Positions 1 through 29,954 of a DNA stretch of 48,736 nucleotides are shown in pieces. A model generated the notes under the pieces. It made no database searches. It was not told where the DNA came from and saw nothing but the letters and a program-made list of their open reading frames with translations. This DNA is from a virus: positions 1 through 48,736 of IMG/VR virus record IMGVR_UViG_3300004369_000026. One strand, 5' to 3'. Position 1 is the stretch's first letter. Each line of letters begins with the position of its first letter. Made by a program: the position numbers and the translations under genes.

Positions 1-129
1 TGTGAAGAGTGGTTAAAACAATCTATTGAAATCCAACAGGATCCAAACCTTGACTTTCATGCCAAGAGGAACCTAATCGGATACCTTAGATCAAAAGTAC
101 CAGGTGAATGTAACCAAGTGTTAACATAG
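1..129 (+). CDS. 3' end of a truncated small gene (hypothetical)
   Basis: The frame is open from the first base of the window to a TAG at 127-129, giving 42 C-terminal residues that begin CEEWLKQSIEIQQ. The start lies outside the window. The peptide is polar with no membrane segment. I do not recognise the family. Its stop codon lies inside the left arm of the 123-131/161-169 RNA helix, so the gene runs directly into the riboswitch-like element. It is supported as coding mainly by the open frame and the tight gene packing around it. Confidence 0.5.
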   Translation, partial: CEEWLKQSIEIQQDPNLDFHAKRNLIGYLRSKVPGECNQVLT

Positions 130-169
130 GACGCAAGTAAGTCGCGGAACGGAGCGTTCATCCTATGTT
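123..169 (+). ncRNA. Glutamine-riboswitch-like RNA (glnA / Downstream-peptide type), permuted order
   Basis: Three blocks resemble the conserved core of glutamine riboswitches as I remember it: GGACGCAAGTAAG (129-141), GGAACG (146-151) and CGTTCATCC (155-163). GAACG (147-151) pairs with CGTTC (155-159) across a 3-nt GAG loop. AACATAGGA (123-131) pairs perfectly with TCCTATGTT (161-169). That outer helix contains the ATG (165-167) of the next small gene, and the likely Shine-Dalgarno GGAG (151-154) lies at the hairpin loop. Riboswitches of this class sit upstream of short ORFs in cyanobacteria and their phages, which fits. Compared with the glnA order the blocks are circularly permuted. Ligand binding is inference. 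Confidence 0.6.
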
Positions 170-29230: not shown

Positions 29231-29315
29231 GGGAGCGTGGCGGAATCGGTAGACGCACCAGACTTAAAATCTGTTGGGCATTGTGCTCGTGGGGGTTCAA
29301 GTCCCCCCGCTCCCA
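29231..29315 (+). tRNA. tRNA-Leu (UAA)
   Basis: 85 nt with a long variable arm, as expected for leucine. Acceptor stem GGGAGCG pairs with CGCTCCC; the anticodon loop CTTAAAA gives anticodon TAA; the T arm is GGGGGTTCAAGTCCCCC. CCA is not encoded. Confidence 0.95.
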
Positions 29316-29341
29316 TATTAACTACATAGTATACAATAATT

Positions 29342-29415
29342 GCCACTATAGCTCAGCTGGATAGAGCAACGGTTTTGTAAACCGTAGGTCGTCGGTTCAA
29401 GTCCGACTCGTGGCT
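29342..29415 (+). tRNA. tRNA-Thr (UGU)
   Basis: 74 nt. Acceptor GCCACTA/TCGTGGC (one mismatch), anticodon loop TTTGTAA with anticodon TGT, T-arm GTCGGTTCAAGTCCGAC. CCA not encoded. It abuts the tmRNA acceptor piece with no spacer, so processing must cut between them. Confidence 0.92.
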
Positions 29416-29705
29416 TTCCTCTTCGGAGGAATAGGTGGTGTTACCGCTATTTCGGACAGGGGTTCGATTCCCCTCGACTCCACTCATGGGGTCGCAATGG
29501 TCTCGACGGGGTTGTAGGAACATGACTGAAACCTGCTTGGATAAGCAACAAATAGATGCCAAAAACATCGCTCCAGCGAACAAGATTGTTCGCTTCTCCC
29601 GTCAGTCTGCACCTGTTGCTGCCTGACCCATATAGGGAGATCGGGGTTAAGTTAGCCTTGTTACCCAAATAACTCTTTGGGGGGTGGAATGCCCCCTTAG
29701 AAAAT
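29416..29705 (+). ncRNA. ssrA: Circularly permuted (two-piece) tmRNA, tag ANKIVRFSRQSAPVAA
   Basis: The acceptor piece comes first. It has a TTCCTC-TTCG-GAGGAA hairpin (29416-29431), ATTTCGGAC (29449-29457, as in bacterial tmRNA 3' ends), T arm AGGGGTTCGATTCCCCT and acceptor strand CGACTCC-A (29475-29482). Five nt later GGGGTCG (29488-29494) opens the coding piece and pairs with that strand, keeping the G3-U70 alanine identity pair. TCTCGACGGGG follows. The tag frame runs from GCG 29576 to TGA 29624. tmRNA rescues stalled ribosomes and adds a degradation tag. The gene order is the permuted form of marine picocyanobacteria. The 3' end (~29705) is approximate. Confidence 0.93.
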
Positions 29706-29717
29706 AGGGAGAACACG

Positions 29718-29891
29718 ATGAAAATCAATCTATGGTATTGCGTCGAAATGAAACAATGGCGCTGGACTTTGGTAGATGATCGTCGTCCTATTCTTAAACA
29801 ACACTCTGGTCAAAGACCAGATCTAAGAGTGGCAATGGAAGACGTTGCTAATACGGTAGAATATATATTAGATACAGGATTGGGGAATTAG
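29718..29891 (+). CDS. Small protein between tmRNA and tRNA-Ala
   Basis: ATG 29718, preceded by AGGGAGAA, to TAG 29889-29891. 57 residues, MKINLWYCVEMKQWRWTLVD..., ending TGLGN. I recall similar short Trp-containing proteins beside tRNAs in cyanophages. Its last ten nt overlap tRNA-Ala: the stop codon is formed by tRNA residues U8-A9-G10. Translation and tRNA maturation from one transcript are therefore mutually exclusive. Function unknown. Confidence 0.65.
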   Translation: MKINLWYCVEMKQWRWTLVDDRRPILKQHSGQRPDLRVAMEDVANTVEYILDTGLGN

Positions 29892-29954
29892 CTCAGTTGG
29901 TAGAGCGCCTGCTTTGCAAGCAGGATGTCAGCGGTTCGAGTCCGCTATTCTCCA
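29882..29954 (+). tRNA. tRNA-Ala (UGC)
   Basis: 73 nt. Acceptor GGGGAAT/ATTCTCC with the G3-U70 wobble required by alanyl-tRNA synthetase, anticodon loop TTTGCAA (TGC), T arm AGCGGTTCGAGTCCGCT. No encoded CCA. A 7-bp hairpin TATTCGC/GCGAATA follows about 5 nt downstream and may mark the 3' processing site. Confidence 0.95.

Follow-up and report, generated by a model that had tools for sequence, protein, structure and literature searches.

Host glutamine riboswitches belong to two classes, in both of which glutamine turns expression on, and they are found mainly with DUF4278 genes; the DUF4278 domain covers an N-terminal stretch of IF17, a glutamine synthetase inactivating factor (PMC6316151). 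The glutamine-I class has a loop E and a covarying one-base-pair pseudoknot in its junction (PMC8250186, PMC12510878); the glutamine-II class has a single long-range pair, C19:G41 (PMC6698751). Tandem glutamine riboswitches are already known (PMC2864571, PMC9481103), and pseudo-cooperative control has been proposed for them. Cyanophage glutamine riboswitches are likewise known by annotation, such as the glnA feature of S-CREM1, whose 99 nt span the whole of the composite element described below (PMC9964418). Finally, the natural circular permutations listed in PMC10085705, in which the same core occurs with its strand order rotated, comprise hammerhead and twister ribozymes, 5S rRNA and group II introns, but no riboswitch aptamer.

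The window, i.e., the whole stretch of DNA that was analysed, is a virus record of 48.7 kb and, judged by its relatives, is a cyanophage. We regard it as probable that it carries a cyanophage glutamine riboswitch of two interlocked aptamer units, with protein genes lodged in the aptamer loops. Read in this way, the window has the following features, the RNA strands being predicted.

1–129, + strand: 3' part of gene A, ending ...GECNQVLT with the stop TAG at 127–129 (reading frame; phrog_6471, E 6.5e-16); expected in the P2a loop of unit 1, with its start beyond the contig end (from complete relatives with an upstream CGTTCATCC)
129–134, + strand: P2a 3' strand of unit 1 (GGA 129–131), then CG and pseudoknot base X1 (C134)
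136–144, + strand: loop-E strand AGTA of unit 1 (136–139) and P3 5' strand AGTCG (140–144), from P3 covariation with unit 2
147–159, + strand: inner P1, with GAACG_1 (147–151), linker GAG (152–154; Y1 = G152) and CGTTC_2 (155–159); GGAG 151–154 is the likely Shine-Dalgarno sequence of gene B
161–164, + strand: P2b 5' strand of unit 2, TCC plus U164, pairing with AGGA 343–346 across the gene
165–359, + strand: gene B, a nested ORF of 64 aa starting 1 nt 3' of the P2b triplet (phrog_13397, E 8.7e-46), its stop TGA (357–359) lying inside CTGAAG
344–349, + strand: P2b 3' strand of unit 2 (GGA 344–346), then CG and pseudoknot base X2 (C349)
353–361, + strand: P3 3' strand CGACT (353–357) and loop-E strand GAA (358–360); CTGAAG (356–361) has an alternative pairing with TTTCAG near the ribosome-binding site of gene C
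362–367, + strand: GAACG_2 (362–366), the outer P1 3' strand, then base Y2 (G367)
387–393, + strand: TTTCAGG, ribosome-binding-site region of gene C, complementary to CTGAAG
403–567, + strand: gene C, a DUF4278-like protein of 54 aa (TYRGVRY; phrog_545, E 1e-32; PF14105, E 5.4e-4, its 20.7 bits being below the 25.3-bit cut-off)

Our comparative set comprised about 340 distinct cyanophage junctions, in which rows are contigs and not lineages; the scans fixed part of the motif, and less restrictive ones were used for variation in the P2 triplet. The motif is not due to chance, the pattern matching at least 120 stretches in IMG/VR, and a related compact element was matched in 457 cyanophage records. 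In most relatives, an extra CGTTCATCC stands directly 5' of the first GGACG, with a short hairpin loop between the two, while GGACGCA...RAAGGAACG comes further downstream, preceded by a short loop or by a gene. The window's copy of the latter (344–366) is the 3' half of unit 2; it is found 180 nt further on, beyond the 64-codon gene, and the DUF4278-like gene comes next. Together, the upstream CGTTCATCC and the downstream GGACGCA...RAAGGAACG indicate an element of two units, each running CGTTCATCC, loop, GGACG, J segment, GGAACG. P2 loop lengths are bimodal (5–41 nt or 136–240 nt), and compact composites, which are free of genes, measure about 80–110 nt. The 5' strands of unit 1 are not visible in the window because its left contig end falls inside gene A; from the relatives, we infer that they exist in the window's phage. 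An earlier note on the window had described a stand-alone aptamer with its conserved blocks in the order 2-3-1. The blocks are present in that order (GGACGCAAGTAAG at 129–141, GGAACG at 146–151, CGTTCATCC at 155–163), but 129–163 is the junction of two aptamer units, and the permuted core is made of GAACG_1, CGTTCATCC_2 and GGACG_2, i.e., the order 3-1-2.

The two units are interlocked by P3, a helix between their J segments (AGTCG, AGCCGACT, GGACGG in unit 1; CGACT, AGCCGACT, CCGCCC in unit 2). The 27 distinct long combinations form 174 pairs, whereas none of 2,000 shuffles gives more than 164; position 8 is paired in 27/27 (12.4 expected) with four pair types; for the short class, the observed pairing was reached by 259 of 2,000 shuffles. 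Loop E is split between the units, its AGTA strand (AAGTA) lying in unit 1 and its GAA strand (RAAG) in unit 2, both flanking the covarying P3. Since unit 1 mostly has no GAAG and unit 2 no AAGTA, neither has a complete loop E. Three freshwater-type composites (L506:4054-4150, L515 and L528:3571-3679) carry AAGTA and GAAG in both units, which would allow a loop E at either end of the P3 that the units share. Among further variants, L065:6500-6830 is a triple array (compact unit, gene-A unit, compact unit) whose first P3 strand has no obvious partner, and the more distant composites L519 and L533 (GGAAGTA / CCGGGATTG) still have a plausible P3 (GGTGACA / TGTCTCC).

For the pseudoknot, we compared base X after P2 (CGXA) with base Y after GAACG in both units of 334 junctions. 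The pairings X1:Y2 and X2:Y1, i.e., the nested fold, are favoured by all 51 junctions that discriminate (51/51). The bases X1,Y1,X2,Y2 read G,G,C,C in 44 of these, possibly largely one clade, and the reverse C,C,G,G in L182, which has a perfect P3 (AGTCT/AGACT), while 6 further informative junctions keep the outer pair alone. Over the whole set, X1:Y2, the one-base-pair pseudoknot of the outer aptamer, pairs in 334/334 junctions and the inner X2:Y1 in all but 8, with 45 fully swapped cases that fit the nested partnership only. This exchange of partners implies that the inner core (GAACG_1, CGTTCA_2, GGACG_2) is circularly permuted, and its rotated strands are indeed mutually paired, P2b covarying and the inner P1 being invariant. 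The inner P1 linker has 3 nt in 240, 4 nt in 89 and more in 9 of 338 junctions; in the window, the GAACG-GAG-CGTTC hairpin proposed by the earlier note can form, and the comparison supports a permuted core with a P1 capped by 3 nt. Since P1 never varies, its partners are assigned from energetics, loop-E geometry and the pseudoknot pair. P1 itself cannot decide the fold, because scans for variants returned chance matches, a change in L509 that is not compensated, and L506 and L515, which are symmetric composites of the freshwater type. On the compact forms, RNAalifold recovered the outer P1, the inner hairpin, P2a and P2b, and missed P3 because of alignment gaps.

At face value, these units might be taken for an ordinary tandem, i.e., two independent canonical switches, (1-2-3)(1-2-3), each with its own P1 and together exerting pseudo-cooperative control: the block order is canonical within each unit, single units score near the Rfam cut-off, and PMC9481103 reports 157 doublets and 4 triplets of glutamine riboswitches. 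Such a tandem would, however, break the pseudoknot pair in the 51 informative junctions, where the nested reading keeps it, and it agrees poorly with P3 pairing between units, with a linker that is 3 or 4 nt long in 329/338 junctions and with the incomplete loop E of either unit. Moreover, the nested fold has the lower energy in 43/43 compact composites, by a mean of 3.4 kcal/mol, the P3 pseudoknot of the tandem fold being unscored. We therefore consider the tandem unlikely. The phage element resembles the arrays of PMC9481103 in having two glutamine aptamer sequences side by side, but its units are interlocked by covariation, and nested ORFs are not mentioned in the accessible part of that source.

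The earlier note was right in kind about the RNA: a glutamine-riboswitch-type RNA, in a phage, with a start codon buried in P2. Searching Rfam, we obtained no glutamine riboswitch match in the window, which holds the gene-bearing form, even at E up to 10. Compact relatives pass RF01739 (cut-off 35 bits), with 36.7 bits for L001, 38.3 for the L009 composite and 39.4 for L073, and the model aligns L009 8338–8422 as a single 85-nt aptamer, the inner unit being treated as an insertion. The 33-bit cut-off of RF01704 is not reached (best 32.8; L009 25.9). As for whether glutamine-II already has the 2-3-1 order, which the earlier note had wondered about, both Rfam models run CGUUC, GGACG, GAACG. The outer aptamer of the composites shows the RF01739 order 1-2-3, with P1 CGUUC/GAACG and P2, and the phage element shares with glutamine-I (RF01739) that P1, P2, loop E (AGUA/GAA), P3, the one-base-pair pseudoknot and the position upstream of DUF4278 genes; it differs in its two units sharing P3, its permuted inner core and the genes in its P2 loops. 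With glutamine-II (RF01704), it has in common the CGCA after the first hairpin, GAACGG, the long-range C:G pair and a partner near the ribosome-binding site, but it stays below the cut-off and its P3 pairs between units. As to a glutamine-II-like helix that would enclose GAACG, with its partner strand directly 3', CTRAAG/TTYAG covaries, yet CTRAAG also serves P3 and loop E.

The scaffold might also be kept while another ligand is bound, or the RNA might merely couple the translation of genes A, B and C, to which we give little credence. Glutamine binding is here a prediction, and phage metabolism could favour a different ligand; against this, neither core shows any change in CGUUCA or GAACG, CGXA is nearly constant in both, the scans for P1 variants yielded one uncompensated case only, and gene C is DUF4278-like, as are the hosts' genes.

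The composite junction was absent from 30 host loci (151 genomes of one cyanobacterial family), those that could be read being single aptamers. A scan of genome contigs proved too permissive and gave mostly chance matches, except for a single-cell contig of uncultured Prochlorococcus AG-337-J18 (L393), which contains genes A and B together with the composite junction and probably comes from an infecting phage.

In contrast to P1, P2 varies. Within each unit, its triplets change and compensate across 140–200 nt of coding sequence, the pair types across the gene being TCC/GGA, TCT/AGA, GAT/ATC and TTA/TAA. Unit 2 has TCC/GGA in 160 cases, TCT/AGA in 65, the wobble TCT/GGA in 24, GAT/ATC in 3 and TCA/TGA in 2, and unit 1 has TCC/GGA in 58 and TCT/AGA in 39, while the mismatch TCC/AGA occurs in zero gene-bearing units (unit 1, 0; unit 2, 0). 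Contiguous P2 pairs in unit 2 average 6.0, versus 4.1 with shuffled strands (shuffle maximum 4.4), and the fourth pair is CG in 147, AT in 58, TA in 32 and TG in 17, with mismatches in 6/260. A P2 of at least 4 bp is found in 259/266, versus a shuffled mean of 133 and a maximum of 150, the 3' half having been located without reference to P2; when one arm is shuffled among loci, the match is lost. Two cultured phages have CATCT...AGACG, S-CAM1 around gene A and DSL-LC03 around gene B, and freshwater relatives have unrelated P2 arms of 8–10 bp, e.g., TTACAGTCAA/TTGACTGTAA. On the gene B tree, few independent pairs are supported for P2, and the third pair is never opposite, which is not significant. 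It also speaks against the composite reading that closing P1 and P2 over 150–200 nt of translated mRNA would be costly.

Across the ~340 junctions, the P2 of each unit encloses either a short hairpin loop or exactly one small gene, an ORF being held by 262/264 long P2b loops and 99/99 long P2a loops. The P2b ORFs start 0–2 nt after the P2 triplet in 254 cases and stop with the TRA of CTRAAG in 243; gene A stops with the TAA of AAGTAA in 31 cases and at or before the P2 3' strand in 68. Genes A and B are real genes, since their differences are concentrated at third codon positions (positions 1/2/3: 3714/2730/9022 for gene A and 8240/4079/14180 for gene B). They are distantly homologous by hhalign (probability 98.2, E 2.8e-14), occupy alternative loops and have a conserved Cys pair (C20 and C56 in the window's gene B, which is predicted to be an alpha-hairpin, pLDDT 82); neither has a match in an NCBIfam profile search. 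Gene C is annotated as DUF4278 in P-TIM40. Where the earlier note had seen control of one small protein, there are up to two nested genes plus the DUF4278-like gene. Elsewhere in the window, a second small ORF lies 3' of gene C (668–838; marginal DUF4278 match, E 0.035), and 29231–29954 holds in a row a tRNA, a cyanobacterial-type tmRNA (29399–29695), which also matches the permuted tmRNA family, and a tRNA.

The linker carries GGAG in 140/264 gene-bearing units versus 1/67 compact ones (2e-17, relatedness ignored), i.e., the Shine-Dalgarno sequence appears with the gene. This bears on the idea that the split P2 arms are terminal inverted repeats of mobile cassettes, whose pairing would serve insertion and not regulation. 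The distant homology of genes A and B in alternative loops is as expected for cassettes, but the linker GGAG found almost exclusively with a gene, the diverse compensatory pairs kept by the arms and the stop codon at a fixed aptamer position make this highly improbable.

In the window itself, much of what the earlier note described is there: AACATAGGA (123–131) is the exact complement of TCCTATGTT (161–169), the ATG at 165 lies within the latter stretch, and GGAG (151–154) is at the loop. Folded alone, the window adopts this local structure (pair probabilities 0.83–1.0, z -3.7), and in silico the 9-bp alternative is far more stable than the long-range P2 (P2 probability about 0.003). The helix is nevertheless not conserved, and we rejected it as a conserved feature: of the 82 junctions that have a gene on either side, 77 show just 2–3 bp of pairing between the units, and the window alone shows 9 bp. 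The note had seen part of the element but given P2 the wrong partner, as P2 pairs across the gene, CGTTCATCC (155–163) with GGACG (344–348) 3' of it, and not with the upstream GGACG. A local 2-3-1 aptamer at 123–169 with a 9-bp P2 burying the gene B start is thus scarcely tenable, very stable as it is in the window, since the cross-unit P2 shows no covariation in excess of shuffles or column composition; the local fold may be a lineage-specific off state.

In the interlocked reading, which we prefer, a canonical glutamine-I aptamer with outer P1, P2a, loop E and P3 would arise from unit 1's 5' strands together with the 3' end of unit 2, and GAACG_1, a 3–4-nt loop, CGTTCA_2, P2b and CGX_2 would make up a second, circularly permuted core; both would share P3 because the permuted core would sit inside the P3 loop. 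A nested gene has its start codon within the P2 5' strand or next to it and its stop codon either by the P2 3' strand or inside loop E. Binding of glutamine would let P2, P3 and the inner P1 form, occluding the starts of genes A and B as well as gene B's GGAG in the P1 loop, while CTRAAG would be held in P3 and loop E, leaving the ribosome-binding site of gene C free; in this state, gene C would be on and the nested genes off. If glutamine is lacking, ribosomes would enter A and B, cross the aptamer strands and keep the aptamer open, and CTRAAG could pair with the gene C site. CTRAAG and that site (TTYAGG) do covary (A-T 59, A-C 0, G-T 67, G-C 84; Fisher 6e-17, relatedness ignored). In L023, L026, L046 and others, a palindromic -10-like box (GGTCTATAATAGACC and variants) stands directly 5' of the first CGTTCATCC; given its closeness, transcription may start right at the first strand of the aptamer, with gene A nearly leaderless.

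Covariation supports the composite architecture: it shows the helices P2 and P3 as well as the partners in the pseudoknot and the alternative anti-Shine-Dalgarno pairing. Glutamine binding and the direction of control are predicted by analogy with characterised host switches. The occlusion of the A and B starts, the freeing of gene C and the hindrance of folding by ribosome traffic are likewise predictions. From these, we infer reciprocal glutamine-dependent control of the nested genes versus the DUF4278 gene. The fuller model would be a back-to-back two-site glutamine switch, with the first natural permuted riboswitch aptamer, in which translation and ligand are mutually exclusive and by which phages would toggle between Cys-pair proteins (low glutamine) and the DUF4278 protein (high glutamine); we give it an even chance of being right.

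Group I introns (e.g., T4 td/I-TevI) carry a protein gene in a peripheral loop and have its translation occluded by RNA structure; the phage case differs in being a predicted ligand-sensing aptamer and not a ribozyme, with no splicing. In the literature that we searched, which included few subscription papers, there was no report of genes inside aptamer loops, interlocked units or natural permuted riboswitches, and the layout with genes nested in sensor loops, carried by viruses of ocean cyanobacteria, appears new. If our reading is right, coding sequence and aptamer are interleaved, with a start codon in one aptamer strand and a stop in another, so that translation and metabolite binding would be in competition for one RNA. 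It would also provide a natural circularly permuted riboswitch aptamer and a new way of coupling two binding sites, for which the compact forms suit probing and crystallography, and glutamine riboswitches filed as simple tandem pairs would merit re-examination. Finally, cyanophage expression would be tied to the nitrogen state of the host via a relative of the glutamine synthetase inactivating factor.
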